Positions 48,664 through 64,000 of a stretch of DNA of 64,000 nt are shown piece by piece (position 1 is the first letter of the stretch; every line of letters starts with the position of its first letter). The DNA lies in NCBI RefSeq assembly GCF_000717595.1, contig NZ_JNZO01000045.1:43521-107520 (forward strand). The letters run 5' to 3'. The notes under the pieces are model-generated. The model saw only the letters and a list, made by a program, of their open reading frames with translations. It was not told the origin of the DNA and ran no database searches. Source of the DNA: Streptomyces flavochromogenes (GTDB taxonomy: Bacteria > Actinomycetota > Actinomycetes > Streptomycetales > Streptomycetaceae). The translations under genes and the position numbers were made by a program.

Positions 48664-48921
48664 TCACCCTTCCCTGGAAGAGAAGCGGGCCACGAGGAGC
48701 ACCCAGGGCAGGTGGGCCGGGCCGGAGATCGTCCAGCTCACGGCAGAGAGCACCGAGGCCGTCCCCAGGAAGGTGACCAGCCCTCGCCGCTCCCGCAGGG
48801 ACTGCCATTCGTGGCGGGCGCTGCCCGCTTCCTTCATCTCGCACCGGGCGGTGCGGATGACCAGGAGGGCGAGTACGACGGCCGCGCCGAGAAACGCCGG
48901 GGCCACGCCCTGTTCGTTCAC
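48664..48921 (-). CDS. Small membrane protein coupled to NhaA
   Basis: 85 residues: an N-terminal helix (APAFLGAAVVLALLVIRTAR), a charged segment (KEAGSARHEWQSLRERRG), and a second helix (VTFLGTASVLSAVSWTISGP). GTG 48921 overlaps the nhaA stop as GTGA, so translation would be coupled, which supports a real gene despite the lack of its own ribosome site. Family unknown; an accessory subunit of the antiporter is conceivable. Confidence 0.5.
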   Translation of the reverse strand: MNEQGVAPAFLGAAVVLALLVIRTARCEMKEAGSARHEWQSLRERRGLVTFLGTASVLSAVSWTISGPAHLPWVLLVARFSSREG

Positions 48922-50219
48922 GCCGTGCTGCCGGACCGCGTGCCGGACCGGTAGATGTCGGGGATTCCGTCGGCGTCGTCGTCGCGCTCTTCCTCTTCCC
49001 ACAGCTGCTTGTAGATGCGGTTGCGGCGGCGCAGGAGTATGGCTGCGAGGGCGGCGGCGGTGAGGGAGCCGACGAGGACGGCGGCCTTGATGTGTTCGGC
49101 TTCGGCGCCTGTCGGGAAGGCGAGTTCGCCGATGAGGAGGGCGACCGTGAAGCCGATCCCGCCCAGAGCGGCCAGGCCCAGGACGTCGGCCCAGGCGAGG
49201 TCGGAGTTGAGCTCGGCGCGGGTGAAGCGTGCGGCCAGGTAGGTGCCTAGGAAGATGCCGAGGATCTTGCCCGCGACGAGGCCGATGACGACTCCGAGGG
49301 GTTCGGGGTCGGTGAAGACGTGGAGGAGGGCGCCGCCCGAGATGCCGACACCTGCCGCGAACAGGGCGAAGAGGGGGACCGCGACGCCGGCGGAGAAGGG
49401 ATGTGCGAGGTGGGAGACACGGGCCGCCGGGGACCGTGCCTCGCCCTTGTCACGGGTGGTGCGCAGGATGAGGCCCATGGCGACACCGGCGACGGTGGCG
49501 TGGACGCCGGAGTTGTACATCAGCGCCCAGACTGCGATGCCCAGGGGCACGTACCACCACCAGCCGCGCACCCGGAGGCGCTGGAGCACGTAGAAGACGA
49601 CGAGTCCGGCGAAGGCCGCGCCCAGCGCCCAGAAGTTGAGGTCGGAGGTGAAGAAGACGGCGATGATGAGAATGGCGCCGAGGTCGTCGACGACGGCCAG
49701 GGTGAGCAGGAACGCGCGCAGCGCGGAGGGCAGGTGGGTGCTGATGACGGCGAGGACCGCGAGCGCGAAGGCGATGTCGGTGGCCATCGGTACGGCCCAG
49801 CCCTCAAGGCTCCCGCCGCCGATGGTGACGGTGAGCACGTAGAGGGCGGCGGGCACGGCCATGCCGCAGACGGCGGCGACGACGGGCAGGGCGGCGGTGG
49901 CGGGGGTGCGCAGCTCGCCGACGACGAACTCGCGTTTCAGCTCGATGCCGGCGACCAGGAAGAACACCGCGAGCAGGCCGTCGGCCGTCCAGTGGGCGAC
50001 GGAGAGGTCCAGGCCGAGGGTGGGGATGCCGAAGTGGAAGTCGCGTATCTCCTCGTACGCCTCGCTCCACGGGCTGTTCGCCCACGCGAGCGCGACGACT
50101 GCGGCGGCGAGCAGGACCAGCCCTCCGACGGTCTCGGTGCGCAGGGCCTCGGTGACGGCCTGGCGTTCGGGCCACGGCAGCAGGCCGAGGATCACCTTGC
50201 GCGGGCGTGACTGCGTCAT
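48918..50219 (-). CDS. nhaA: Na+/H+ antiporter NhaA
   Basis: About 433 residues with about twelve helices. Family motifs are all visible: ADGLLAVFFLVAGIELKREF, VPMATDIAFALAVLAVIS, LLTLAVVDDLGAILIIAVFF (the paired aspartates of the ion site), and LGGIGFTVALLIGELAF. A C-terminal acidic tail EEEERDDDADGIPDIYRSGT is added. NhaA expels sodium in exchange for protons. GGAGG lies 10 bases before ATG 50219, which is preferred to a start 29 codons upstream. Isolated from other ion genes, with a coupled small membrane gene downstream. Confidence 0.92.
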   Translation of the reverse strand: MTQSRPRKVILGLLPWPERQAVTEALRTETVGGLVLLAAAVVALAWANSPWSEAYEEIRDFHFGIPTLGLDLSVAHWTADGLLAVFFLVAGIELKREFVVGELRTPATAALPVVAAVCGMAVPAALYVLTVTIGGGSLEGWAVPMATDIAFALAVLAVISTHLPSALRAFLLTLAVVDDLGAILIIAVFFTSDLNFWALGAAFAGLVVFYVLQRLRVRGWWWYVPLGIAVWALMYNSGVHATVAGVAMGLILRTTRDKGEARSPAARVSHLAHPFSAGVAVPLFALFAAGVGISGGALLHVFTDPEPLGVVIGLVAGKILGIFLGTYLAARFTRAELNSDLAWADVLGLAALGGIGFTVALLIGELAFPTGAEAEHIKAAVLVGSLTAAALAAILLRRRNRIYKQLWEEEERDDDADGIPDIYRSGTRSGSTA

Positions 50220-50449
50220 GAGGGGAAGGCCTCCGGGATGGGTTGACGGGCGGGCACGAGGCCCCTCGACGCCGACCAGACTTCCCGGCACACCAGCGCA
50301 TCGCATTGACGCGTTCCTTACACCCTATCGAGCGCCGGGGGACCTCGCCAGGGCGTCTCTCAGCTGCCGAGACGGGTTGAAGGGCCCTGCTTCTCACCAA
50401 GGCGCGAGGTGAGGGCACGACCCTTCGGGAGCCGGGCCGCCGGGGGCGG

Positions 50450-51698
50450 TCAGACGGTGGTCTTCACCGGCTCCTGGTCAGTGTCCTCGTCCGTGTCGAG
50501 GCCTGCGTCGCGCTTCTTCGCGAAGGCGAGGAAGGTGTTCAGCTCCCGCTTGACGACCGGGGCGAGGAGGTAGAGGCCGATGATGTTGATGACGGCGAGC
50601 ATGAAGAGCACCGCGTCGGCCATGTCGATCGGGGTCTGCAGGGTGAGCAGGGAGCCCGCGACGGCGAAGAGGGTGTAGAGGACCGTGAAGGTCAGCTCGC
50701 TGGCCCTGCTACGGCCGAAGAGGTGGGTCCAGGCCTTCATGCAGTAGTAGCCCCAGGTCAGTACCGTGGAGATCGCGAACAGCATCACCGCGACGGTGAG
50801 GATGTACGGGAACCAGGGCATGACCGTGTCGAAGGCGTCGGAGGTGATGGTGACGCCGCCGATGGACTCACCGCCGTTACGGAGCTCGACGTAGCTGGCG
50901 GGGTTGGCGATGACGATGGTCAGCGCGGTCATGGTGCAGATGACGACCGTGTCGATGAAGGGCTCAAGCAGGGCGACCAGGTGCTTGGTCTTCACCGCGG
51001 AGTGGGCGATCGGGGCCGAGCCCAGGCCGCCTCGTTGGAGAACGCGGCCCGCTTGAAGCCGATGATCAGCGCACCGAGGACACCACCGGCGACACCCTCG
51101 GGGTTGAACGCACCCTCGATGATCGTGGAGACCGCGGAGGGCACGGCGCTCGCGTTGACAGCGATGCGACGAGGCAGGCGGCGATGTAGATGCCGGCCAT
51201 CGCGGGGACCAGCTTGCTGGTGACGGAGGCGATGGAGCGGATGCCGCCGAGGAGCACGATGCCGACGAGGGCCGCGATCAGGATGCCGAAGAACAGCGCA
51301 CCGGCCGAGGAACCAAGGGCTCCGACCTCGCCGCCTGTGACGGAGACGAGCTGCGCGTAGGACTGGTTGACCTGGAAGAGGTTGCCGCCGAAGAGGCCGA
51401 AGAACAGGATCATGAACGAGGCGAGGACGGCGAGGACCTTGCCGAGGGTCTTGCCGTTCTTGCCGAAGCGTTCGGCCAGGTCCTTGGGCAGGTAGTGCAT
51501 GGGGCCGCCGGAGACGGTGCCGCCGAACCAGCCGGTGAAGACCAGACCGGCGACGACGAGCCACGCCACGATCATCGGAAGCTCCGTACCTCCGACGGGC
51601 ACGGAGTAGAAGACGATTTCGCCGAGCCAGGTGGCTATCGGCTCGAAGAAGCCACTGACCGCCCTGTCGACGGACTGGGTGAGGGAATCGAGAGACAC
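50450..51698 (-). pseudogene. Alanine/glycine:cation symporter (AGCS) gene with two frameshifts
   Basis: GTG 51698 opens VSLDSLTQSVDRAVSGFFEP, IATWLGEIVFYSVPVGGTEL and helices through KLVPAMAGIYIAACLV. At about 51165 one base is missing; the next frame gives RIAVNASAVPSAVSTIIEGA, FNPEGVAGGVLGALIIGFKR, AAFSNEA. At about 51022 a second base is missing; the third frame gives the last helices from KHLVALLEPFIDTVVICTMT to the C-terminus. Together they make a complete AGCS carrier of about 415 residues. The AGCS signature GALIIGFKRAAFSNEAG spans the second break. Complete content with only two point indels suggests recent mutation or sequence error. Confidence 0.8.
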
Positions 51699-51981
51699 GG
51701 TGGGGACCTCGGAAGCGCAGGACCGGCGCGTGGGAGGCAGCGCCAGTGGGGGTGCGGTCTTTGAGCGAACGCCGTTGTCCGGTCGGCGACCCGAGTGATC
51801 GACGCCCATGGACGCAGAGCGTGATCATCTCGGTCGTACTGCCGGTACGTGCCCGGCATCCCACAGGACAGACGGGGGGCGGTGCCACCTGCGGAGTTGC
51901 GCATTCCTGCCACGACAGGGCGCCTCCGCCTGCCACCCGGCGGGACGCGTCGGCGACGGCAGGAGTTTGACCGGCCGCCCC

Positions 51982-53040
51982 TTACCTGCCCTCTGGTGCC
52001 TGCGGCTTCTGACGGCCGGCGGTGAAGGGATACGTGTCGGCATCGGCCTCGGCCGCGTCAGCAAGTGCCTCGGCGGCGGCTTGCGCCGCCTTCGCCGCGT
52101 CGTCGGCCGCCTGGGTGGCGGCCTCGTCCTCCGCGGACGTCTCCCGGGTGGCCGGAGACGGGGGCAGCGCCTCGTTGAGGGCGCGGGACACCCCTTGAAG
52201 CGCCGAGGTGACCTCACTGGGGATTACCCAGAAGGTGCTGCCCGCACCCTGGGCGAGCTGGGGCAGCACCTGCATGTACTGGTAGGCGAGGAGCTTGGGG
52301 TCGGGGTCGTTGCGGTGGACGGCCTGAAAGACCTCGTCGATGGCCCGGGACTGCCCCTCGGCCTTGAGGATCTCGGCGGTGCGGTTGCCTTCCGCCCGGA
52401 GCACGGCGGCCTGCTTGTCCCCTTCGGCGGTAAGGATCTGCGACTGGCGCTGCCCCTCCGCCCCCAGGATCGCCGCCCGCTTGTCGCGCTCGGCGCGCAT
52501 CTGCTTCTCCATGGCGTCCTTGATGGACTGCGGAGGGTCGATGGCCTTGATCTCCACGCGGTTGACCCTCAGCCCCCACTTGCCCGTAGCCTCGTCGAGC
52601 ACGCCACGGAGCTGGTTGTTGATGGTGTCCCGGGAGGTCAGGGTCTTCTCCAGGTCCATCGAGCCGACGACGTTGCGCAGGGTGGTGACGGTGAGCTGTT
52701 CGACGCCCTGCAGGAAGTCGGCGATCTCGTAGGCGGCCGCTCGTGGATCGGTGACCTGGAAGTACAGCACGGTGTCGATCTCGACGACCAGGTTGTCCTC
52801 GGTGATGACCGGTTGCGGCCGGAACGAGACCACCTGTTCCCTCAAGTCGATCACCGGATAGACGCGGTCTACATAGGGGATGACGAGGTTGAGGCCCGGC
52901 CTCAGGGTGCGCCGGTAGCGGCCGAGGCGTTCGACGTTGCGGGCCCGCGCCTGCGGCACGATGCGCACCGCCCGCACCACGGTGAACACCGCGAGGGCCG
53001 CGAGAATAAGACCGGCTATGAGTAGTCCCGGCACGTCCAT
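51982..53040 (-). CDS. SPFH/Band 7 protein, QmcA type
   Basis: 352 residues. One N-terminal helix (LLIAGLILAALAVFTVVRAV), then the SPFH domain (RIVPQARARNVERLGRYRRT, LRPGLNLVIPYVDRVYPVID, VTTLRNVVGSMDLEKTLTSR), then a coiled coil (RAERDKRAAILGAEGQRQSQ) and an acidic Ala-rich tail. QmcA-type proteins form membrane microdomains and usually pair with an NfeD protein. NfeD is encoded directly upstream, 3 bases away. It is the last gene of a five-gene minus-strand set. Confidence 0.9.
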   Translation of the reverse strand: MDVPGLLIAGLILAALAVFTVVRAVRIVPQARARNVERLGRYRRTLRPGLNLVIPYVDRVYPVIDLREQVVSFRPQPVITEDNLVVEIDTVLYFQVTDPRAAAYEIADFLQGVEQLTVTTLRNVVGSMDLEKTLTSRDTINNQLRGVLDEATGKWGLRVNRVEIKAIDPPQSIKDAMEKQMRAERDKRAAILGAEGQRQSQILTAEGDKQAAVLRAEGNRTAEILKAEGQSRAIDEVFQAVHRNDPDPKLLAYQYMQVLPQLAQGAGSTFWVIPSEVTSALQGVSRALNEALPPSPATRETSAEDEAATQAADDAAKAAQAAAEALADAAEADADTYPFTAGRQKPQAPEGR

Positions 53041-53043
53041 GAC

Positions 53044-53475
53044 TCACTCCCGGGGATAGACGACGGCGGTGGCGCCATCGATCTCCATGACGTCGACGGT
53101 CGCCCCCGGAGGTATCACCAGCGTCTCGTCGTAGGCGCGGGCCGTCCACTCCTCGCCACCGATGCGGACCCTGCCGCCCAGCCCCGTCACTTCCGACACG
53201 ACACGGGCGGAGCGGCCCACCAGCGCGTCCGTGCCGAAGCGCTCGGTCTGCGGCTTGAGCAGATGGCGCGCGGCGACGGGGCGCACGAACAACAGGCTGG
53301 TCGCGGCCAGAGCGGTGAAAACCGCGAGCTGCAAGGGCGGTGAGAGTCCCAGGGCGGCGGTTCCCGCGGTGACCGCCGCGGCGACGCCGAGGATCCCGAG
53401 CGCGGCCGTGAGGGTGAAGATCTCCGCCGCCACCAGCACCCCTGCGGCGATCAACCAGACCAGCCATGGGTCCAT
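53044..53475 (-). CDS. NfeD-like membrane protein with OB-fold domain
   Basis: 143 residues. Two to three helices (WLVWLIAAGVLVAAEIFTLT, LGILGVAAAVTAGTAALGLS) are followed by a C-terminal OB-fold (ALVGRSARVVSEVTGLGGRV, RIGGEEWTARAYDETLVIPP, GATVDVMEIDGATAVVYP). This is the short NfeD class lacking the protease domain, which partners SPFH proteins. ATG 53475 is chosen with GAGAG upstream. It is followed by the SPFH gene after 3 bases, the usual arrangement. Confidence 0.9.
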   Translation of the reverse strand: MDPWLVWLIAAGVLVAAEIFTLTAALGILGVAAAVTAGTAALGLSPPLQLAVFTALAATSLLFVRPVAARHLLKPQTERFGTDALVGRSARVVSEVTGLGGRVRIGGEEWTARAYDETLVIPPGATVDVMEIDGATAVVYPRE

Positions 53476-53535
53476 GGCACTCTCCCGGTAGGTGCGACTC
53501 CGCGAAGGCCCGAAAAAGCGCACCTTTCGGATTTC

Positions 53536-56500
53536 TTACCCCTTTTTGCGGGGTGGCACGCTCGGGCAGGCTTGTCGGCCTGCTCCAAGCGCGGTCGGGC
53601 AGGCCGACAAATGTGGTTTCTCCTCTTCCTGTGTCAGTTCTGAAGGTGTTCGGGAGCCGTCAGCGCGGTGTATCGCGTGCCGCCCGGCGGGGCGGGCGAG
53701 GAGGTGGCGCGGGTCCGTCGCGCGGGTGATCGCGGTCTCGACTGCGGTGATGCGGTCGGCGAGCAGGCCCAGGGCGGCGACCGCCCGGGCGAAGGGGTCG
53801 TCCCCGGAGCCGCCGAGTGCCCGGGCGCGCGCGTGGGCGGCGGTGATCTCGCTCCAGCGGGCGGCCTGTGCCGGGGTGAGGACGCCGCGGAGTTCGGCGA
53901 GCTTGAGGAGGTTGGCCTCGGCTTCGGTGGTGAGGGTCTGGGCCTCGGCGGTGTAGTGGTCGTCGATCACGGCGGCGAGCTCGGCGTCGTTCATGGCGGG
54001 TGAGATGCGGGCCGTGATCTTGTTCATGGTGCGGTACGAGCCCTGGAGCCGGAACGGCGGTTCGGTGCGGGCCGCGTCGGCGGTGGCGGCGGAGGAGATG
54101 TACTCCTCGTTGACGGCGAGGACCGTCTGGCGGGCGGCGAGGAGGTGGCGGAGGACGGCGAGGATCCGGTCGAGTTCGGCCGGGGCGTAGGGGTGGGTGA
54201 GCCGGTCGCGGCGGGCCGTCGGGTCGCCGGCCGCCAGCCTGGTCAGGAGCTCCAGGTCGGTGCGGTCGCGTCCGGCGAGGGGGGCGAGGACGGGGTGGGA
54301 GGCGAGGGCGTTCTCGACGAAGCTGAACGCGAAGGCATCCTCTTTGCCCGTCAGTACGTCGCCGAGGTTCCACACGTCGGCCCGGTTGGCGAGCATGTCC
54401 GGTACGCGGAAGGCCTGTCCCGACTCGGTGTACGGGTTTCCCGCCATGCAGACGGCGAAGCGCTTGCCGCGCAGGTCGTGGCCGTTCAGGGTCCGGGTGG
54501 CGTCGCAGAGCGGGATGAACTTCTGCAGGAACTCCGGCGAGGTGTGCTGGATGTCGTCGACATACAGCAGGACGTTGCCGGCCGCGGTCAGCGCGAAGTC
54601 GATCTTCTCCAGTTCCCGGCGGGCGGTGGCGTCGGGTGCCTCATCGGGGTCGAGGGAGACGGTCCGCTGCCCGAGAGCGGGCCCGTCGACCTTGACCAGG
54701 AGCAGGCCGAGGCGGTCGGCGACGTATTCGATCAGCGTGGTCTTGCCGTAGCCGGGCGGGGAGAGGAGCAGCAGCAGGCCCTGGGAGTCGCTCCGCTTGG
54801 CGTCTCCGGCCGCGCCGAGCTGTTTGGCGAGGTTGTCGCCGATGAGGGGGAGGTAGACCTCGTCGACGAGCCGGTTGCGGACGAAGGACGACATGACCCG
54901 GGGCCGGCATTCGTCAAGGCGGAGCCGTTCGCGCTCGGTGGCGACGAGCCGAGCCCTGTGTTCCTGGTACGCACGGAAGGCCGGCACGTCGGTGGCGGCG
55001 AACTCCCGCGTCCTGGCCAGGAACTCGTCGAGGCGCAGCTCCAGCGCGCGTCCCTCCACGCGGGGGTGGCTGCCCAGGAGTCCGGTGACCGTCTCCGTGG
55101 TGGGGGCGGCGATCTCGTAGCGGTCGAGGTCCGGGCAGAGCTCGACCGCGACGGCCTCGGCTAGCACGCCTTCGTCGAACCGTTCCCCGGACGCCGACGC
55201 GTAGGAGGTGAGCCATGCCTCGACGAGCTGGCGCCGCGCGCGCGGCGCTGTGAGGGAGGCGAGGGCGTCGTCGTAGGCGGAGGTGCCGACTGCGCGGCGG
55301 AACTTGTCGAGCAGGGCCCGTGCGGCGTCCGAGACGGCGAAGCCCGCCGGCGCGGTGGCGAGTTCCTCTATCAGGTACGCGGCGGCCGTCGGGTCGCCGA
55401 TCTCCCCGGCCAACTCGTTCCGCAGGCCGTCGAGGGCCGACTCCGCGCCGAAGAGGTCACGGGCCCGTGCCAGGGCGTCGGCCCGGCAGGTCCACTGCTC
55501 GCGGGCGTCGGCGGTGGCGGCGTGGGCCCAGAAGAGCTGGGCGGTCGCTCGCGCAGGGGCCGGGTACCTGAGCAGTCCGATCCGTTCGTGCAGACGGAGG
55601 ACGGCCCCCAGGATCGCCGCCGTGTCGTGAGCGTGGACGCCGCGCTCGTACCCCTCGTCGTACGCGGCCTCGGCGGCACGTCGCGCGAGCGCGTACAGGT
55701 CCTCGCCCGCCAGGCTGCCGGGGCCGTGCTCGGCCAGGAGGCGTGCGGCCAGATATTCGGACCGGTAGACCTCCGGCGATTCGGAGCGCAGGGTCCGGTC
55801 CCAGAAGGGGCGGGTCGCGGCGAACGCCGGATCGGTGACCGGCACGCGGTAGTCGGTTCCGGTCAAGGTGAGGGCGAGGGCGTCCTCATGTGGGACGAGG
55901 GTCAGTTCGGGGGTCTGCCGGTTGACGGCGAAGCGGTGCCGGCCGAGCCGGATCGTGGCGCCGCCGTCGGAGAACAGGTCGCTACGGTCCCGCAGCGCCC
56001 GTCCGGCCTCCTGGCGGGCGGCGCCGAGTCGGCCCTCCAGTTCCTCCGCCCGTGTCTCGTCGCCGAGTTCCCTCAGCTCGGCGCCGGTGCGCCGGACCTT
56101 GGCGACCATGGGGTCGGAGGCGAAGTACGTGTTCACCTCGTCCCGGTCGGCCAGGGTCGCGGCGCGCCGGGCGATCGCTTCCAGAACGCGGCCGGCCGAT
56201 GCCGCGAGGCGCTCCGCGCGGCGGGCACGGGTGTCCACGAGGGACTGCCTGCGCGCGGTGAAGGCGTCGTACATCTCGGCGCGCTTGTCGGCGATCTCGC
56301 CGAGGAAGCCGTCGTGCTCGGCGAACCGCGACTCCAGGTTCTCCAGTTGGAGCAGCAGCCGGCCGAGCTGGTCGTCGCAGTGGTCAGGGGTGTCGGCAGC
56401 GGCCAGCGCGCTCGTGACGGCCTGGGCGAGCAGGGCGAACTCGGCGACGAACTCCGCCTTCCCCTCCTGGCCCAGGAGTTCGGTGCGGCGGGCTGTGAGC

Positions 56501-58485
56501 ACGGCGCGGGCACGGTTCAGCGCGCCCAGGACGTCGGCGATCCGTTCCAGGATCGAGGTGCGGACGGTGGCGTCGCCGATGTCGAGTCCGGCGATGATCT
56601 CGCTGAGGGTCCGCAGGCCGGCGGTGTGCGTATCGAGGCGGTCGGCGACCAGGCCGGTCTCGGCGACGGTGGTGACGGCCCCGGCCTCTGTCGCGAGCCG
56701 TTCCGCCTCGGCGTAGTGGGCGGTGAAGGCGTCCTCTCGCTGGAGGAAGGCGGCGGCCCGCTGTGCCGCCCAGGCGATGTCGGCCTCGACGTCCCCGGCG
56801 AGGGCGTCGATGCCCTCCGTGTCGGCGTACCGCATGTCCTTGAGGGTCACCAGGTGGCCCTGTGCCCGGCGAAGTTCGGTGATCCGGGAGATCCACTCCT
56901 CGGCGGTGGCGGGCGCCTCGCCCCGGATGCGCCGTACCAGTCGGCCGACCTGCTGGGCGGCCTCCGCGAAAGCCTCCGCCGCCTGTCGGGTGAGCGTGGT
57001 CACGGTCGCGAACTCGTCGAGGACTTGCACGGCGGTCGCCCGGAGTTCTGTCAGCGGGGTGTGCAGGTCGCCTGTCTCCGGGTCTCCCAACCAGTGGTGG
57101 ACGTCGCCCGCGCGCACACACGCGGCGACGAGTGCCTCGTATACCTCGCCGGAGGCGGTCAGCTCGGTGGCCTGACGGGCGATCGACAGGCAGTCGGCGA
57201 CCCCGCGGACGAGATCCGCGTTGCCGATGCGGGCCAGCGGGCCGTCCACCGCAGGGGTCACGTGCGTGTCGGAGACGTACGGGGTCCGCCAGATCTGCAC
57301 GGGGTGGACCCGGCCGGGCTCGCCGGTCTCGTCGCGCAGCACGACCATCGCCCCGTCGTCGAGCAGCGCGTATCCGCGGCAGGAGACGGGACGGGTGATC
57401 TCCTTGCGGATCAGGTTGTACGGCAGGAGAAGACCGCGACGCTCCGGCCGGGTGTGGAAGGCGAAGAGGATGTCCTCGCCGTTGGGCGAACGGATCAGCC
57501 GGTCGAAGACCAGTCCCGAGGTGTCGGTATCGAAGGTCTTCACCTCCCCGGAGGCCAGGCAGTAGCCGCCGGGGAACACGACCCCCTCGTTCCCGGGCAA
57601 TCGCAGACACGCCTGAGCGAGTCCGTCGAGCCTGACCACGCTCCCGGTCAGGGCGTTGAAGACGAGGTGGCGGACGGCCTCCTCCTTGTACGGGCGGACG
57701 CGCACCAGGATCAGGGTGCCCACGGCCGCGTGCGCGACCTCGGCGTCGGCCAGCGCCTGGAGCGGCTCGTCGACCGGCTCGGCGTACACGCCCTCGGCCG
57801 TCTCGGCGTTGTTCTCCGTCTTGACCGTGAGCGTTCCGCCGACCGTGGAGACGAAGAGGCGGCCGTCGAGCGAGATGTGCGGGTGCCGCCCTTGGACGTG
57901 GTCGCCGCGGGTCGTCTCCACCCAGTCCACGTCGTGCGAGGGAGGGACGACGTGGTCGCGTTCTCCCTGGGCGTCGAGGAACCGCGTCTCGCCGGACGGC
58001 CCGATCGACCAGCGCAGGACGCGGATGTCGTCGGCCTTCTGCCCGGTCCGGAAGAGGGCGAGGAGCCGGCCCTCCACGCGCCTCAGCCGGAGCAGGCGCG
58101 CGCCTCGGAAGTACCGGTGCAGCGCCGAGAACTCCCGTACGAAGCCGGCGTCGTCGAGGAGTCCGGGCACCGCGCCCTCGGGCAGCGGGTTCAGGTCGCG
58201 GTCATGCAGGGTGAAGACGTCGGCGACCGACGGCTCGGCGCTCACCGCGGAGGCCGGGTGGCAGCCGAACAACAGGACGTCGTCCCCCACGGCGGCGACG
58301 TCCAGCAGTACCCGGGCGCCCTCGGTGCGGACGCTGTCGGTGCCGGTGAGAGACAGACCACCGGCACCGAAGGCGGCGGTACGGGCGGTGTTGAGCGCCT
58401 CGGCACGCCTGGCCAGCTCGGCCGCCTGCGCCGAAAGACGGTCGCGCAGCACCGCGTACGTGTCCTGGTCGATTCCGGTGCTCAT
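53536..58485 (-). CDS. Giant AAA+ ATPase of the DUF3686 ('DNA repair ATPase') type
   Basis: 1,649 residues. The N-terminal 400 residues are strand-rich and propeller-like (DUF3686 region; ILFAFHTRPERRGLLLPYNL). A long helical middle (about 400-830) is probably coiled coil, followed by an alpha/beta region to about 1180. The AAA+ module has Walker A LLSPPGYGKTTLIEYVADRL near 1243 and Walker B NVLLYVDDIQHTS near 1308 (DD rather than DE); RFAVCMAGNPYTESGQAFRV is a sensor-type segment. No membrane helix, so cytoplasmic. It lies between flotillin and NfeD genes, so it probably works at the membrane. The last 35 residues look like read-through of an intergenic hairpin. Confidence 0.88.
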   Translation of the reverse strand: MSTGIDQDTYAVLRDRLSAQAAELARRAEALNTARTAAFGAGGLSLTGTDSVRTEGARVLLDVAAVGDDVLLFGCHPASAVSAEPSVADVFTLHDRDLNPLPEGAVPGLLDDAGFVREFSALHRYFRGARLLRLRRVEGRLLALFRTGQKADDIRVLRWSIGPSGETRFLDAQGERDHVVPPSHDVDWVETTRGDHVQGRHPHISLDGRLFVSTVGGTLTVKTENNAETAEGVYAEPVDEPLQALADAEVAHAAVGTLILVRVRPYKEEAVRHLVFNALTGSVVRLDGLAQACLRLPGNEGVVFPGGYCLASGEVKTFDTDTSGLVFDRLIRSPNGEDILFAFHTRPERRGLLLPYNLIRKEITRPVSCRGYALLDDGAMVVLRDETGEPGRVHPVQIWRTPYVSDTHVTPAVDGPLARIGNADLVRGVADCLSIARQATELTASGEVYEALVAACVRAGDVHHWLGDPETGDLHTPLTELRATAVQVLDEFATVTTLTRQAAEAFAEAAQQVGRLVRRIRGEAPATAEEWISRITELRRAQGHLVTLKDMRYADTEGIDALAGDVEADIAWAAQRAAAFLQREDAFTAHYAEAERLATEAGAVTTVAETGLVADRLDTHTAGLRTLSEIIAGLDIGDATVRTSILERIADVLGALNRARAVLTARRTELLGQEGKAEFVAEFALLAQAVTSALAAADTPDHCDDQLGRLLLQLENLESRFAEHDGFLGEIADKRAEMYDAFTARRQSLVDTRARRAERLAASAGRVLEAIARRAATLADRDEVNTYFASDPMVAKVRRTGAELRELGDETRAEELEGRLGAARQEAGRALRDRSDLFSDGGATIRLGRHRFAVNRQTPELTLVPHEDALALTLTGTDYRVPVTDPAFAATRPFWDRTLRSESPEVYRSEYLAARLLAEHGPGSLAGEDLYALARRAAEAAYDEGYERGVHAHDTAAILGAVLRLHERIGLLRYPAPARATAQLFWAHAATADAREQWTCRADALARARDLFGAESALDGLRNELAGEIGDPTAAAYLIEELATAPAGFAVSDAARALLDKFRRAVGTSAYDDALASLTAPRARRQLVEAWLTSYASASGERFDEGVLAEAVAVELCPDLDRYEIAAPTTETVTGLLGSHPRVEGRALELRLDEFLARTREFAATDVPAFRAYQEHRARLVATERERLRLDECRPRVMSSFVRNRLVDEVYLPLIGDNLAKQLGAAGDAKRSDSQGLLLLLSPPGYGKTTLIEYVADRLGLLLVKVDGPALGQRTVSLDPDEAPDATARRELEKIDFALTAAGNVLLYVDDIQHTSPEFLQKFIPLCDATRTLNGHDLRGKRFAVCMAGNPYTESGQAFRVPDMLANRADVWNLGDVLTGKEDAFAFSFVENALASHPVLAPLAGRDRTDLELLTRLAAGDPTARRDRLTHPYAPAELDRILAVLRHLLAARQTVLAVNEEYISSAATADAARTEPPFRLQGSYRTMNKITARISPAMNDAELAAVIDDHYTAEAQTLTTEAEANLLKLAELRGVLTPAQAARWSEITAAHARARALGGSGDDPFARAVAALGLLADRITAVETAITRATDPRHLLARPAGRHAIHRADGSRTPSELTQEEEKPHLSACPTALGAGRQACPSVPPRKKG
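53572..53610. terminator. 12-bp stem-loop inside the 3' end of the giant ATPase frame
   Basis: TTGTCGGCCTGC and GCAGGCCGACAA pair perfectly around a 15-base loop. The ATPase frame runs through it for another 36 bases. A hairpin of this strength is normally between genes, which suggests the original stop was further upstream. Confidence 0.5.
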
Positions 58486-58584
58486 GTCGATCCGCTCCTT
58501 GTCCCGTGATGGATGCGGGTCCGGCGCCGACAACCCCCGTATGCCGGCGCCGGACCCGCTGTGACCGCTCTCCCCCCGGGGCGG

Positions 58585-60609
58585 TCAGTTCGTGACCGCG
58601 CCGTTCAGCGCGGCGCTCTCGGCCGGGGCGGTGGTGGCCTGGCCGGGTGCGTGCGCGTCGAGCACGCCGGACTTCATGACCTTCGCGAGCAGTGCCGAGA
58701 CGCTCAGGTTCTGCACGTCGCCCGTGGACAGCGAGCCGAGCACCTTGGTCAGGTCCTCGGTGAAGGAGCCCTCACCGTTCAGCCACGGGCCGGCCAGGGC
58801 CTGCGCGGTCTGGGAATGGTCCATGAACCCGTCGACGGACTTCCCGAGCGCGATCGACTGCACGAGACGGTCGAGGAAGACGGACTCCCCGCCGACGATG
58901 TTGATGTCGGCGTTCTCCAGGCCGGTGGCGAGGACGGTGGCCTGCGCCTCGGCGACCTGCCGCTGCACGTCGAGGCCGGCGAGCCGGATGTCCTTCTCCG
59001 CCTCCAGGCGCAGCCGGTACTCCTCATGGGTACGGGAGGCCTCGTCGAGCGCGGCCATCGCCGCAGCCTTCTCGGTCAGACCGGCCGCTTCGGCCTTGAG
59101 CTTCTCGCCGATCGCGGTCGCCTCGGCCAGCGCCTTCTCTCGTGTACCGACCGCCTCGGCGCGCAGCCGTGCCTCCGTGGCCTCGGCCTCGGCGCGGCCG
59201 GTCTTCTCGATCACGTCGGCCTCCTTCTCCCGGACCTGCACTGCCGCCAGCCCCTCGGCGGCCGCCTCTGCCTGCACTCCCTCGGCGAGGCGGATCTTGG
59301 CGCGGGCGTCCATGTCGGCGGCCTTGTTGCGGGCCTCCGCCAGGGTCAGCTCCTCGGCGGCCCGGTGCACGGCGGCCTGCTCGGCCGCCTCGGCCGCCTT
59401 GATGTCCTTGACCAGCCTCTCCTGCGCCTCAGCCTCGGCCGCGATGACGACGGCCTGCCGGGTGCGCTCGGCCTCTTCGACCGTACGGAGCCGCTTGATG
59501 GACTCCTCCTGCTCGGCGACCGTACGGTCCACCGCGATCCGCTCCCGGATCACCTCGGCGATGTCACGGCGCTCCGACTCCACCTCCTTCTCGGCGGAGA
59601 TGCGGGTCAGTTCGGTCTCCCGGTCACGGGCGATGACCTCCAGCAGGCGGTCCTTCTCGATCCGCTCGTTCTCGACGGCGATGACCCGCTCGCGGTTCTT
59701 CTGCGCGACGGCCACCTCGCGGGCCTGGTTCTCCCGCTGGATGCCGAGCTGCTCCTCCGTCCTCAGGAACGCGCTCTGCGCCCGCAGCCGCTCCTCCTCC
59801 ACCACCCGCGCCGTCTCGGCCTCCTCACGCGCCCGTACGGTGTCGATCTCCCGCTTCTGCTTGATCTCCGCGTCGGCCTGGCGCCGCTCCAGCTCCAGGA
59901 TCGCCTCGCGGGCGTCGACGTTCTGCCGGGTGATCTCCTTCTGCTCGTGCTGGCGGAACTCGTTCGTGCGGACGTTCTCGACGGCGGTCAGTTCCGTGAT
60001 CTTGCGGATGCCCTGGGCGTCGAGGATGTTGCCGGGGTCGAGCTGGGTAAGCGGGGTCTGCTCCAGGTAGTCGATCGCGGCGTCCTCCAGGCTGTAGCCG
60101 TTGAGGTCGATGCCGATGATTTCGATGATCCGGAACCGCAGCTCCTCGCGCTTGGTGTACAGATCGGTGAAGTCCAGCTGCTTGCCGACCGTCTTGAGCG
60201 CCTCGGAGAACTTGGCGTTGAACAGCTCCTGCAGCGTCTCCTTGTCGCTGGCGCGGGCGGTGCCGATGGCCTGCGCGACCTTGATGACGTCCTCGACCGT
60301 CTTGTTGACCCGGACGAAGAACGAGATCCGGATGTCGGCGCGGATGTTGTCGCGGCAGATCAGGCCGTCCCTGCCGGTCCGGGAGATCTCGATCGTCTTC
60401 ACCGAGATGTCCATGACCTCGGCCTTGTGCAGGACGGGCAGGACCACCTGCCCGGTGAAGGTGACGTCGACCTTCCGCATCTTCGAGACGATCAGCGCCT
60501 TGCCCTGTTCCACCTTGCGGAACAGCCGGCTGACCACGAAGAGCAGCGTGAGAACGATGAGCAGGACAGCGGCGACGAGCACGCCGATGCCCACGGTGAT
60601 GGCATCCAT
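58585..60609 (-). CDS. Flotillin (YqiK type)
   Basis: 674 residues. The N-terminal transmembrane helix (ITVGIGVLVAAVLLIVLTLL, FVVSRLF) precedes an SPFH domain (RKVEQGKALIVSKMRKVDVT, EVMDISVKTIEISRTGRDGL). About 340 residues of flotillin coiled coil with Ala/Glu repeats follow (AEAEAQERLVKDIKAAEAAE). The C-terminal helix region reads TGLENADINIVGGESVFLDR. Flotillins scaffold membrane microdomains. Gap of about 100 bases to the ATPase gene, same strand. Its pairing with a YqiJ-like gene upstream mirrors the E. coli yqiJ-yqiK pair. Confidence 0.92.
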   Translation of the reverse strand: MDAITVGIGVLVAAVLLIVLTLLFVVSRLFRKVEQGKALIVSKMRKVDVTFTGQVVLPVLHKAEVMDISVKTIEISRTGRDGLICRDNIRADIRISFFVRVNKTVEDVIKVAQAIGTARASDKETLQELFNAKFSEALKTVGKQLDFTDLYTKREELRFRIIEIIGIDLNGYSLEDAAIDYLEQTPLTQLDPGNILDAQGIRKITELTAVENVRTNEFRQHEQKEITRQNVDAREAILELERRQADAEIKQKREIDTVRAREEAETARVVEEERLRAQSAFLRTEEQLGIQRENQAREVAVAQKNRERVIAVENERIEKDRLLEVIARDRETELTRISAEKEVESERRDIAEVIRERIAVDRTVAEQEESIKRLRTVEEAERTRQAVVIAAEAEAQERLVKDIKAAEAAEQAAVHRAAEELTLAEARNKAADMDARAKIRLAEGVQAEAAAEGLAAVQVREKEADVIEKTGRAEAEATEARLRAEAVGTREKALAEATAIGEKLKAEAAGLTEKAAAMAALDEASRTHEEYRLRLEAEKDIRLAGLDVQRQVAEAQATVLATGLENADINIVGGESVFLDRLVQSIALGKSVDGFMDHSQTAQALAGPWLNGEGSFTEDLTKVLGSLSTGDVQNLSVSALLAKVMKSGVLDAHAPGQATTAPAESAALNGAVTN

Positions 60610-60705
60610 GAGAAACCCCGTGTCGATGGAAGAAGGGGGAGCCGCACGTTCAGGCGGCGTTGTGGAAGAGCGAGCACCGGACGGCGGGCGCTCCCGGAGC
60701 GACGG

Positions 60706-61179
60706 CTACCTGCGTCGGGGTGTGCGCACAGCGGCACGGTGCTGCCCGAAGGCGGCAGCTCGGTCGCGTTCGGGCAGCACCGCCGGACCTGCGGCGTCCT
60801 GCCGGGACGGCCCGGGTTCGTCGGGGAACAACTTCGCAAGCGGCCCCACGAGGCGCCGTGTCGCCCACCATGAGGCGACGGGAGCAAGCACCAGCAGGGC
60901 GAGCGAGAGCAGAGCGGACAGCGGGCGAGGCACATCGGAAAGGCCGAGGAGTACGGATCCGGTGACGCTCATGGCCCAGCCGGCGACGACGAAAACGGAG
61001 GCCGCCACCGAGACGGGCACCCGGCCGAGACGCAGCCTCTCCGCGTCCACGTCGCCGTCGAAGCCCTTCCGTTCCACCGCCCCGAACAGGACGAGCAGCC
61101 AGAACACCGCCACGGCGACCAGGGCCGCGCTGAACGACAGCGAGGGGAACCCGAAGGCGGCGCTCAGGAACTCACCCAT
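60706..61179 (-). CDS. YqiJ-like membrane protein, apparently without OB-fold
   Basis: 157 residues. Three to four helices: EFLSAAFGFPSLSFSAALVA with VAVFWLLVLFGA, VSVAASVFVVAGWAMSVTGS, LSALLSLALLVLAPVASWWA. The opening resembles the DUF1449/YqiJ membrane portion. In that family a C-terminal OB-fold of about 70 residues follows; here the protein ends in an Arg-rich tail (AAFGQHRAAVRTPRRR) without it. ATG 61179 is selected just before the first helix. As the first gene of the flotillin operon it probably recruits the flotillin in the membrane. Confidence 0.7.
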   Translation of the reverse strand: MGEFLSAAFGFPSLSFSAALVAVAVFWLLVLFGAVERKGFDGDVDAERLRLGRVPVSVAASVFVVAGWAMSVTGSVLLGLSDVPRPLSALLSLALLVLAPVASWWATRRLVGPLAKLFPDEPGPSRQDAAGPAVLPERDRAAAFGQHRAAVRTPRRR

Positions 61180-61293
61180 GGCCCTCTCCCCCTGCACATC
61201 ACGGTTTCCGTCTTCCGGCATCAGGCCCGTGCCCATGCCTTTCCGTGGAGCCATCCTGCTTCAGAATCGGCGCCTTGGCATTGCCGTAACCAT

Positions 61294-61320
61294 GCAGTCT
61301 TTGACGTCTTCCTGATGCCG
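61294..61320 (+). promoter_or_regulatory. Element A: GCAGTCTTT...ATGCCG motif
   Basis: The 27-base element begins GCAGTCTTTGACG and ends TGATGCCG. A closely related copy lies on the minus strand at 63031-63056. It is in the divergent region between the YqiJ-like operon and the PucR gene. It may be the binding site of that regulator or a shared promoter. Confidence 0.4.
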
Positions 61321-61406
61321 GTTGCGAACCCCGGCGGGCGGCGTGTCAGTCTTGGTCCCCGCGCGTCAGGAACTCGTATCAGACGCGTCAGGAACGGGGA
61401 GGGACC

Positions 61407-62468
61407 GTGGCGGAGAGGGAACGGGTCGAGGGGTACCTGGAGGGGTACGCCGAGATCCTTACGGGCGTGTGTGAGACCCGCCGCAGGCTCACTCCGGAGG
61501 AGCGCGCGGCCCTCCGCTCCCTCGGAGAGCGGGCCGCTGAAGCCGGCATCGGGCTGCGGGACCTCATCCGGGCCCACCTCTCCGCCGCACAGCGGGTACA
61601 CCCGGGGCTGCCGAGGGCAGCCGCCGACCACCTCCTGTCCGCCGTAGAACAGGCCGTCGACGCCTTCGCCGAGGGACACGAGCGGGCACAGCACCTGGCG
61701 ATGCGCCAGGAAGAGGCCGCCCGGCGGGAGTTCATCGACGACCTCCTGTACGGCCGGAGCGATCTCGGCAGGCTGGCCGAGCGCGCCGAACGCTTCGGGC
61801 TGCTCCTGTCCCACGCCCACGCGGTGGCCGTCGCCCAGGGACGGGAACCGTACAGCGACGGCTACGAGGTCACCCGTGCCGTCGAGTCCTCGCTCACCGC
61901 CCGCTTCGGCAACCGCCGCATCCTGCTCACCACCAAGGACGGGCGGCTGATCTGCGTCGCCCCGGCGGACGAACCCGCCGTGCTCGCCCACTTCGCCAAG
62001 CAGGCGCACGCCGCCACGGACGGCGGCCAGGTGGCGATCGGCCGCGCCCACCCGGGCGCGGGCGGCGTCGTCCACTCCTACGAGGAAGCCCTCAACGCCC
62101 TGGACCTCGCCGCCCGCATGAACCTCGACGAGCCGGTCCTGCACGCCGCCGACCTCCTCGTCTACCCCGTTCTCACCCGCGACCGGCAGGCCATGGCCGA
62201 CCTGGTCCGCACCGTCCTCGGCCCGCTGCAACAGGCACGAGGAGGCGCGAAGCCCCTCCTGGACACCCTCACGGCGTACTTCGACACCGGCTGCGTCACC
62301 GCCCAGGCGGCCCGCCGCCTCAACCTCAGCGTGCGGGCCATGACCTACCGCCTCGACCGCATCCACCGCCTGACCGGCGCCGATCCCGGCGATCCCGTCC
62401 AGCGCTACACGCTCCAGACGGCCGTCGTCGGCGCCAGGCTCCTGGACTGGCCCGACCAGCCCCTGTGA
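61407..62468 (+). CDS. PucR-family transcriptional regulator
   Basis: 353 residues. An N-terminal helical sensor (about 1-110) is followed by a CdaR/GGDEF-like middle domain (ARREFIDDLLYGRSDLGRLA, AERFGLLLSHAHAVAVAQGR) and a C-terminal PucR helix-turn-helix (LLDTLTAYFDTGCVTAQAAR, RLNLSVRAMTYRLDRIHRLT). GGGAGGGACC precedes GTG 61407. Lying between and divergent from the flotillin operon, it is the obvious candidate to control both flotillin units. The inducer is unknown. Confidence 0.9.
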   Translation: MAERERVEGYLEGYAEILTGVCETRRRLTPEERAALRSLGERAAEAGIGLRDLIRAHLSAAQRVHPGLPRAAADHLLSAVEQAVDAFAEGHERAQHLAMRQEEAARREFIDDLLYGRSDLGRLAERAERFGLLLSHAHAVAVAQGREPYSDGYEVTRAVESSLTARFGNRRILLTTKDGRLICVAPADEPAVLAHFAKQAHAATDGGQVAIGRAHPGAGGVVHSYEEALNALDLAARMNLDEPVLHAADLLVYPVLTRDRQAMADLVRTVLGPLQQARGGAKPLLDTLTAYFDTGCVTAQAARRLNLSVRAMTYRLDRIHRLTGADPGDPVQRYTLQTAVVGARLLDWPDQPL

Positions 62469-62811
62469 TCACGAGGCTGAGCGACCAGACTGGGAGGAGG
62501 AAGGGGCGCATCAGCTCTGGGCGAGCTGGGTCCTGCTGATCGGCGGTGCGGTGCTGCTCCTGGCGCCGAGTGTCGCCGTTCTCCTGGGCTGGCGGCCGCG
62601 CTGCCTTGTACGGCCCGGTGAACCCACCCGCCTGCTGGGTGCCGCGGGCGTCATGCTGTACGGGACGGTGCTGACCAACGAGGTGGCGGGCGATCCGTCT
62701 CCTGCGGACCACGGCATACGAGGCCTCCTTCGGTCGACAGCGAGCATGAGCCGCCCTGCCCGCGTAGGGACCCGCGAAGGTGTTTCCCGACCGGTGTGCT
62801 GCCGTTCCCGG
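62469..62811. other. Possible remnant of a small membrane protein gene
   Basis: A plus-strand frame near 62515-62740 reads LWASWVLLIGGAVLLLAPSV, AVLLGWRPRCLVRPGEPTRL, LGAAGVMLYGTVLTNEVAGD, two helices with a polar loop, but no start codon with a ribosome site precedes it. It may be a translated gene with an unusual start or a decayed one. Confidence 0.3.
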
Positions 62812-63036
62812 CTACGGGAGAGCGCGGTCTTCGTAGGCCCCCGAGACCGCCGCAGGTCCCCCGTCCTCTCCCGTCGCCGGGGGCGACCGGCTGTCCAGCA
62901 TGGCGGTGAGGATCAGCCCCAGCAGCGCGGTGACGGTCAGGACGGCAGCCGCCACGACGCGGGGGTTGCGGCGCGCGGCTCGGACGCCCGCGGGCGCGCC
63001 CTCGTGGCCGAGTTCACGGACGCGTGCAGACGGCAT
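62812..63036 (-). CDS. Small single-pass membrane protein
   Basis: 74 residues: a charged N-terminus (MPSARVRELGHEGAPAGVRA) with RRNPR, one helix (VVAAAVLTVTALLGLILTAM), then a polar Pro/Gly tail, predicted outside. No ribosome site precedes ATG 63036; the upstream bases form the shared element B, so initiation may be leaderless. Function unknown, divergent from the membrane protein gene at 63112. Confidence 0.45.
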   Translation of the reverse strand: MPSARVRELGHEGAPAGVRAARRNPRVVAAAVLTVTALLGLILTAMLDSRSPPATGEDGGPAAVSGAYEDRALP

Positions 63037-63070
63037 TAAGAACGCGTAAAGACTGCCGGAACCAGGCAGT
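63031..63070. promoter_or_regulatory. Element B and central inverted repeat in a divergent promoter region
   Basis: 63031-63056, read on the minus strand, matches element A of 61294-61320 (GCAGTCTTT plus most of the next 17 bases ending ATGCCG). ACTGCC and GGCAGT form an inverted repeat with a 7-base spacer at 63052-63070. It sits between the 74-residue protein gene and the SPFH-linked plus-strand genes. Confidence 0.4.
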
Positions 63071-63111
63071 GACCATCTATGCCGTTACGTGGAAACATCC
63101 TTGAACAACGG

Positions 63112-63648
63112 ATGAAGCCCCGCATGGGACAGGTGGCGCAGATGGGCTGGTTTCTCGGTCTCGGCATCGCGGGTCTCGTGCTGCTCGTCCTGGCGCTGGT
63201 CTTCGACGGGGTGTTGGAGGGGGTCCTCGACTCGATCGGCGCGGGGCTTGACGGGTTTCTGTCGTTGCCGGTGGTCGCCGGGTTCGTGTCCGCGCTCGGA
63301 TTCACGGGCGCGATCACGATGGGCGCCGTCGGTACGGGGGCGGGGGTCGCCACCGGTGCGGGTGTGGTCGCGGGGGGCGTCGTGGGGTGGGGGACCTGGC
63401 GGCTCAGCCGGGCGCTGCTCCGCGACGGCGTCACGCCCGCACCGCGCGGCGAGGACCTGACCGGTACGAGCGGGTCGGTGGTGACGGCGATCCCCGTGGG
63501 CGGCTACGGCGAGGTACTGCTGTACCTCGCGGGCCAGCCGGTGAAGTACGCGGCGAAGGCCGCGACTCCCGTCACGCGGGGCACCGAGGTGTGGGTGGAG
63601 TCCGTGCTCTCACCGACGTCCGTCTCCGTCCGCCCGGTCGAACGCTGA
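63112..63648 (+). CDS. Membrane protein, possibly NfeD-like with OB-fold
   Basis: About 178 residues. Hydrophobic segments (WFLGLGIAGLVLLVLALVFD; VVAGFVSALGFTGAITMGAV; GAGVATGAGVVAGGVVGWGT) precede a C-terminal beta domain (DLTGTSGSVVTAIPVGGYGE, VLLYLAGQPVKYAAKAATPV, TEVWVESVLSPTSVSVRPVE) that fits an OB-fold. This is the arrangement of NfeD-like partners of SPFH proteins, and an SPFH gene follows after 49 bases. ATG 63112 is chosen; ATG 63079 and 63124 are in frame and cannot be excluded. Confidence 0.75.
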   Translation: MKPRMGQVAQMGWFLGLGIAGLVLLVLALVFDGVLEGVLDSIGAGLDGFLSLPVVAGFVSALGFTGAITMGAVGTGAGVATGAGVVAGGVVGWGTWRLSRALLRDGVTPAPRGEDLTGTSGSVVTAIPVGGYGEVLLYLAGQPVKYAAKAATPVTRGTEVWVESVLSPTSVSVRPVER

Positions 63649-63697
63649 CCCGGCGCCACGTTCTGTCCTTCTCATTCTGATCGAAGGGGGTTTCTTC

Positions 63698-64000
63698 ATG
63701 AGCCCTGTCCTGACCGCTGTGGTGGGCATCGTCGTCCTCGTGGTCCTGCTCGGCCTCGTCGTCGTCACGCGTTACAAGGTCGCCGGGCCCAGCGAGGCGT
63801 TCATCATCACCGGCCGCCGGGGCAAGCAGGCCACCGACCCGGCCACGGGGCGGGTGTTCACCGACAACAGCGGCCAGAAGGTCGTGGTCGGTGGCGGTGT
63901 GTTCGTCGTGCCTTTCGTGCAGCAGAAGTTCACGCTCGACCTGTCCAGCCGGCACATCCCGGTCGCGGTGCGCGGCGCGGTCACCCTGCGCGGTGTGAAG
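63698..64000 (+). CDS. SPFH/flotillin family protein (3' end outside window)
   Basis: 101 residues are visible. GAAGGGGG precedes ATG 63698. It starts MSPVLTAVVGIVVLVVLLGL, one transmembrane helix, then VTRYKVAGPSEAFIITGRRG, KQATDPATGRVFTDNSGQKV, VVGGGVFVVPFVQQKFTLDL, SSRHIPVAVRGAVTLRGVK. This is the beginning of an SPFH domain of the flotillin type (SEAFIITGRRG, GGGVFVVPFVQ). It is the third SPFH protein within 12 kb and is encoded right after a membrane gene that may be NfeD-like. Confidence 0.9.
   Translation, partial: MSPVLTAVVGIVVLVVLLGLVVVTRYKVAGPSEAFIITGRRGKQATDPATGRVFTDNSGQKVVVGGGVFVVPFVQQKFTLDLSSRHIPVAVRGAVTLRGVK

Follow-up and report, generated by a model that had tools for sequence, protein, structure and literature searches.

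The 64,000-nucleotide stretch of Streptomyces flavochromogenes DNA analyzed here (the window; contig NZ_JNZO01000045.1, positions 43,521 to 107,520) forms the end of a 107,520-base contig in a genome of 8.9 Mb. On its minus strand it encodes a giant DUF3686-type ATPase, a YqiK-type flotillin and a YqiJ-like membrane protein. These three proteins are the working unit of the locus, and the tie between ATPase and flotillin is very tight. The core module is of a known kind; its regulatory and physiological context in Streptomyces is new as far as our literature searches reach. The module genes and the regions of the ATPase are as follows.

60706..61254, minus strand: YqiJ/YuaF-type membrane protein, module gene 1 (182 residues; membrane half only)
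58585..60609, minus strand: YqiK-type flotillin (674 residues; SPFH domain and long coiled-coil)
53536..58533, minus strand: giant ATPase (DUF3686 propeller, coiled-coil, helical region and AAA+ domain)
57280..58356, minus strand: beta-propeller of the ATPase (residues 60-418 of the 1665-residue open reading frame, ORF)
55975..57240, minus strand: long helical/coiled-coil region of the ATPase (residues 432-853; contains DUF7902)
53881..54900, minus strand: AAA+ domain of the ATPase (residues 1212-1551)

An association of DUF3686 genes with flotillin and YqiJ-like genes, for which an earlier note on this DNA had proposed a check, was confirmed: flotillin accompanies the ATPase in 50/50 genomes of the genus, in 12/12 plasmid-collection records and in 74 of 80 diverse loci, and a YqiJ-like gene is present in 64 of these 80. 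Of 101 Streptomyces genomes, 50 carry the ATPase. A phylum-wide sample of 396 genomes contained it in 9, of which one lies outside the genus, and it was absent from all 14 control genomes. An independent search with the flotillin (E <= 1e-60) returned 50 of the 101 Streptomyces genomes, a list identical to that of the ATPase, and the two genes adjoin in all 40 Streptomyces loci read (L032-L071). The 12 plasmid-collection records with the ATPase came from Actinomycetota, Deinococcus, Hymenobacter and Gammaproteobacteria, several of them being chromosome-sized (1.7 to 11.9 Mb); the same 12 head the flotillin list, with the pair adjacent by coordinates.

The 80 diverse loci, the best 80 of 538 relatives, were taken from genome contigs of Myxococcota, Gamma- and Betaproteobacteria, Actinomycetota and Planctomycetota. 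Where flotillin was found, it was encoded upstream of the ATPase and in the same orientation, no more than 600 bases away in 70 loci and at 2.0-6.4 kb in 4 (L086, L089, L128 and L140). In five of the six other loci the contig ends no more than 358 bases from the ATPase, and a flotillin stub was present in two of these five. Distance matrices of ATPase and flotillin correlated at 0.91 (74 loci), and those of YqiJ correlated at 0.74 with the ATPase and 0.73 with flotillin (64 loci), all values being uncorrected for the species tree. Note that the loci are mutually related, so that the counts are not independent events.

The ATPase ORF runs to 1665 residues from a TTG start and to 1649 from the ATG at residue 17. 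Its closest relative among the matches listed is a Streptomyces gardneri protein (94% identical). Pfam matched DUF3686 (E 4.9e-173), DUF7902 (7.2e-26) and, weakly, AAA. The structure model consists of a beta-propeller, a long coiled-coil and a MoxR-like AAA+ domain, which supports the propeller-like N-terminus proposed from the sequence. In the AAA+ domain we located what we take to be Walker A (1258-1266), Walker B (1323-1329) and sensor 1 (1365-1369), together with candidates for the arginine finger (in 1382-1386) and sensor 2 (1498-1501). The catalytic motifs other than Walker A are invariant across the set compared. Because Walker A served as the search pattern for the 80 diverse loci, its invariance there is by selection. 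Among the chains ranked by Foldseek, the AAA+ fold is closest to the MoxR members CbbQ and NorQ, with dynein AAA within 2 Z units of these. In contrast to NorQ/CbbQ with their VWA partners, a single chain here combines propeller and coiled-coil with the AAA+ domain, and its partner gene encodes a flotillin; no VWA match was obtained among ten window proteins scanned with Pfam. In L037, L050 and L071 the ATPase match falls into two pieces, and some copies may be broken.

The flotillin alone gave no Pfam match; in a whole-genome search it matched Band_7 at 43 bits, and a sequence search against the Protein Data Bank returned no match. The partnered flotillins carry ~65-100 more coiled-coil residues than E. 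coli YqiK (553 residues), the single reference used. The YqiJ-like proteins form a BLAST cluster present in 66 of 82 sequences compared, in which the window gene groups with genes preceding flotillin elsewhere. The membrane half of this protein was found in 36 of the 40 Streptomyces loci and its OB-like C-terminal half in 23 of the 36 (one partial). In the other 13 the OB-like half was not found while the membrane half is kept; these are the window, L034-L038, L041, L044, L046-L048, L052 and L056.

The association of YqiJ, flotillin and AAA+ protein, and the description of the latter as propeller, coiled-coil and AAA+ domain, are already present in Ravi et al. 2024 (PMC11237479, available part), whose operons have the same three genes and the same ATPase domain description as the module. 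The features by which that module is recognized, a flotillin-type SPFH protein beside a propeller/coiled-coil AAA+ protein and a YqiJ/YuaF-type protein in the operon, were found here. The CesT/Tir-PspA dyad of the larger form is absent at the window locus; the abbreviated form needs no dyad, and the available part of the same article states that abbreviated operons without PspA are widespread. Its main text mentions PLD, not rhomboid, and contains no mention of PucR, antiporter or TrkA. Beyond that article, the present analysis adds the strictness of the pairing, the promoter element and the cation island. The module also resembles yuaF-floT of B. subtilis and yqiJ-yqiK of E. coli as an operon of NfeD2/YqiJ and flotillin (PMC2636767, available part). 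E. coli yqiK differs in having no giant ATPase beside it and in its YqiK being without the additional coiled-coil residues. According to the same excerpt, yuaFGI of B. subtilis is sigma-W-dependent and inducible by osmotic or alkaline shock, and unpublished work cited there found no growth defect of an E. coli yqiK deletion under the stresses tried. The literature search returned nothing on DUF3686, on 'DNA repair ATPase' together with flotillin, or on the PucR family together with flotillin. In the flotillin literature, covered by titles and abstract starts and, for antiporter, TrkA and PspA, by a partial listing, there was nothing on the operator or on a cation link. The available part of a P. 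aeruginosa SPFH paper (PMC13086221) has no use of 'ATPase' at the start of a word.

The remaining features of the locus surround the module as follows.

61279..61297, minus strand: degenerate copy of the operator in the module promoter (3 mismatches, with changes in the left arm)
61407..62468, plus strand: PucR-family regulator, divergent from the module (GGDEF_2 and HTH_30)
63053..63069, plus strand: operator element before the NfeD-FloT operon (CTGCCGGAACCAGGCAG; 3 mismatches versus the perfect palindrome)
63079..63648, plus strand: NfeD/YuaF-like partner of FloT (name based on its position ahead of FloT and on relatives)
63698..64000, plus strand: FloT-type flotillin/SPFH protein (NCBIfam FloT), cut by the contig end
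53571..53611, minus strand: hairpin at the 3' end of the ATPase gene (-28.6 kcal/mol)
53044..53523, minus strand: NfeD of an accessory NfeD-QmcA pair, adjoining the module in this lineage only
51982..53040, minus strand: QmcA-type SPFH protein (Band_7) of the NfeD-QmcA pair
50450..51936, minus strand: AGCS sodium:alanine symporter, in the surrounding cation-transporter island (two frames, 50450-50995 and 50992-51936)
48918..50306, minus strand: NhaA sodium/proton antiporter, in the cation-transporter island

The five minus-strand genes from YqiJ to QmcA and the divergent PucR, NfeD-like and third SPFH (FloT) genes are thus present where the earlier note had placed them, the FloT gene being incomplete. 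The part of FloT that is present matched NCBIfam FloT with E 2.3e-12, under the model's cut-off. The break at the contig end is perhaps due to a repeat. On other contigs of the window genome there are two C-terminal FloT pieces (G000:C66:2-694, at the contig start, and G000:C47:35639-36352). The NfeD-like protein at 63079-63648 gave no Pfam match. The ORF at 62551-63039 is probably not a gene: neither Pfam nor NCBIfam matched it, and tblastn found no counterpart in 40 related loci. The two ORFs of the AGCS symporter overlap in different frames, reflecting either a real frameshift or an assembly error.

The DNA between the divergent PucR and module genes has in common a palindrome, TTGCCGG-N3-CCGGCAA, around which CGGCAT and AAGA are likewise conserved. 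Scored as TGCCGG-N3-CCGGCAATG upstream of flotillin in 40 loci, the element had no mismatch in 20, one in 18, two in 1 and three in 1 (the window). Among 800 mononucleotide-shuffled upstream regions none reached 0-1 mismatch, while 10 showed two and 68 showed three. If one position may be either A or G, the element is also found ~650-850 bases before FloT, i.e. ahead of the NfeD gene paired with it, at 28 of 30 FloT loci, and it was present in 10 of 11 FloT loci from module-less genomes (at most 2 mismatches in both cases). The symmetrical palindrome (at most 2 mismatches, within 400 bases upstream or 950 for FloT) preceded 31/41 PucR genes (30/40 without a gene counted twice, G005), 20/24 FloT genes and 5/7 CPA antiporter genes, compared to 3 of 920 control windows. 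In other genomes, PucR faces the element next to a CPA gene (L037 and L041), a TrkA gene (L256) or NfeD-FloT (L262, L263 and L264).

A related pattern of 19 bases was used to scan 18 whole genomes, with at most 1 mismatch allowed. The 12 module genomes gave 39 sites versus 6 for the reversed pattern, none of the 39 from the window genome, and the 6 module-less genomes gave 15 versus 7. Eight of these 15 are one sequence of the module-less genome G040, where an identical 19-base operator-like TTGCCGGTGGGCGGCGATG stands at 8 places, probably inside a repeated element. Operator sites beyond the module's own were found at PucR/CPA, CPA/NhaA, CPA/CBS or NfeD-FloT genes in G005, G007, G009, G013, G025, G067 and G080. 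The remaining sites look like chance.

In Streptomyces, Na+/H+, K+/H+ and 2-TM/RCK (TrkA-type) genes are enriched around the module. At least one CPA, TrkA-type, NhaA or AGCS gene was present in 27 of 40 module loci and in none of 20 control stretches taken 700 kb from them, using transporter queries drawn from the module loci. An independent search of 21 whole genomes, using the NhaA model of Pfam, placed 9 of 36 copies within 20 kb of a module where 0.23 were expected (at most 3 in 20,000 simulations). A thirty-seventh copy, on a second contig, was left out of this test, and 15 further genomes have NhaA copies whose position with respect to the module could not be established; these were not used. 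In 12 of the 23 genomes with both, no more than 20 kb separates FloT from the module; the window genome entered this count through the window itself, and distances for FloT and QmcA were taken manually from listings. A TrkA-type gene follows the ATPase on the same strand, at less than 200 bases or overlapping, in L059, L060, L061, L063, L065, L066, L068, L069 and L070. We rejected the TrkA-type protein as a classical K+ channel: the one sequence profiled does have two membrane segments, but no TVGYG filter motif was seen in the stretches inspected of two sequences.

We see about an even chance that the module is a PucR-linked membrane/cation-stress unit, in which the flotillin has its own MoxR-like motor that remodels the cage or its clients. 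The available part of PMC11260169 describes the flotillin cage as 22 pairs of subunits. Flotillin and YqiJ would form a membrane-bound cage, on which the ATPase would dock through its propeller and coiled-coil; a MoxR-type twisting or pulling would then act on the cage, or on the membrane proteins inside, to open, rebuild or recycle them. The linked PucR protein would control the set under cation, pH or membrane-potential stress, and NfeD-QmcA, AGCS and NhaA would be neighbors from the same kind of island, outside the machine. A more specific form is put forward only tentatively: the ATPase may reshape or open the flotillin cage so as to regulate the leak of ions or the activity of transporters in the membrane patch beneath it, with the PucR-linked operator in Streptomyces coupling this machine to the second flotillin and to K+/H+ and Na+/H+ transport as one regulon for membrane-potential and cation stress. 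Of the roles suggested in the earlier note, stress gains support from the shared promoter element and the cation-transporter neighbors. Defence does not: PADLOC gave no match for the five window proteins scanned. The PLD protein of a relative gave weak DrmC/Mko matches.

Several observations weigh against the stress unit. On the side of the module itself, no flotillin was found in L153, E. coli YqiK occurs without the giant ATPase beside its gene, and partners outside Streptomyces include PspA/DUF2170, PLD and rhomboid. With regard to cations, the queries for the 40-locus count came from module loci, and the count is therefore biased toward a difference; 13 of the 40 loci show no such transporter; and FloT is hardly commoner with the module (23 of 50 module genomes versus 18 of 51 without). 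Outside Streptomyces, these transporters were not found beside the module (tblastn matches in only 6 Streptomyces loci of the 80). The operator of the window is poor, with 3 mismatches at the module and 3 at FloT, and the palindrome was found upstream of 0/10 NhaA, 0/7 AGCS, 0/5 CBS and 1/18 TrkA genes. Much of the transporter link is therefore neighborhood, co-regulation being only putative. Ten of the 41 PucR genes are without the element, and many of the PucR matches are non-independent because the intergenic region is common with the module. The PucR protein is a candidate binder of the palindrome by position (31/41 PucR genes, one counted twice).

The Band_7 protein next to NfeD at 51982-53523 forms with it a pair of the SPFH1/NfeD1 (QmcA) type, and it is quite improbable that the full five-gene set including this pair is one functional machine. 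The five genes do lie on the same strand, with gaps of 96, 51, 12 and 3 bases between neighboring ORFs from YqiJ to QmcA, and QmcA has a loose island link to modules and to FloT. However, orthologues of QmcA (at least 83% identity) occur in 23 of the 101 genomes, 16 with the ATPase and 7 without; among the 50 module genomes, that of the window is the only one in which they are adjacent to the ATPase. No NfeD or QmcA match was found in the 40 other module loci read, and a typical position of the ATPase between two SPFH/NfeD pairs was not confirmed. The hairpin at the ATPase/NfeD junction is strong (z -4.65, 0/200 shuffles as stable) and may possibly mark the transcript end before NfeD-QmcA; it was not picked up by a scan for U-tract terminators. 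A simple scan for promoters and terminators gave nothing resembling a promoter and two sites resembling terminators, a lower yield than from its shuffles. Despite the short gaps, a single operon of five to seven genes is unsupported, as the hairpin parts ATPase from NfeD, and on the same grounds of adjacency, absence from the 40 loci and hairpin the pair was rejected as a machine part. NfeD-QmcA is a bystander of the module. Note that some match to the window QmcA protein was obtained in all 101 genomes, the second copy of the window genome being 62% identical. QmcA-type genes recur loosely (7-20 kb), in non-adjacent positions, near modules or FloT operons: orthologues lie ~10 kb (G097:C47) and ~17 kb (G009:C1) from a module, G067, which has two modules, contains more distant homologues (64% and 61%) at ~7 and ~18 kb from them (G067:C1), and in G076 an NfeD-QmcA pair lies ~8 kb from a FloT operon (L274:16801-19780).

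Two further explanations concern what the ATPase acts on, and we regard both as unlikely, the one no more so than the other. The ATPase might be a bacterial counterpart of Vps4 acting on PspA, a relative of ESCRT-III, with flotillin only recruiting PspA to the membrane. PspA and its partner DUF2170 each accompany 21 of the 82 sequences compared, all of them proteobacterial; two PspA genes lie elsewhere in the window genome; the available part of PMC11237479 proposes ATP-dependent membrane remodeling for PspA with AAA+ proteins, and that of PMC9239133 mentions PspA with flotillin and NfeD. Alternatively, a flotillin quality-control unit would use the ATPase to unfold damaged membrane proteins gathered by flotillin, in the manner of FtsH with HflK/C. 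HflK/C-FtsH is likewise an SPFH cage with an AAA+ motor, in that case a protease, and unfolded proteins are held in membrane microdomains of S. aureus (PMC11222466, available part). However, HflK/C-FtsH has another kind of AAA+ protein and another SPFH subfamily, and the module is without a protease: a Pfam scan matched no protease domain in the ATPase, there is no constant protease neighbor, and the rhomboid cluster occurs in only 8 of the 82 sequences. That the protein is a DNA-repair ATPase, as the Pfam description and the NCBI protein names have it, is scarcely credible; flotillin is its constant neighbor, and no DNA-repair protein was found among ten representatives of recurrent-neighbor clusters named by Pfam. 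We rejected this function as resting on a database name only, and argue that the name 'DNA repair ATPase' is misleading. The strictly co-inherited ATPase partner and the shared promoter element offer handles on bacterial flotillin function: the choice of stress, the genes to follow jointly, and a catalytic mutant.

Variants of the module were also seen. Plasmid records of 169-562 kb (H1, H2, H4, H5, H8 and H11) carry the ATPase-flotillin pair in Streptomyces, Deinococcus, Pseudomonas and Hymenobacter. Two eroded modules keep the operator, PucR and the YqiJ-like gene (L199:8901-11462 in G036 and L257:3112-7195 in G065); the former has ATPase fragments only, and the latter gave no flotillin or ATPase match. 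Among the 82 sequences compared, PLD was present in 11 and TelA in 4. Rhomboid and PLD genes lie downstream of the ATPase in Gammaproteobacteria (L104, L108, L112, L116 and L127), and TelA genes were found at L122, L138, L144 and L151 (Xanthomonas, Stenotrophomonas and Luteimonas).

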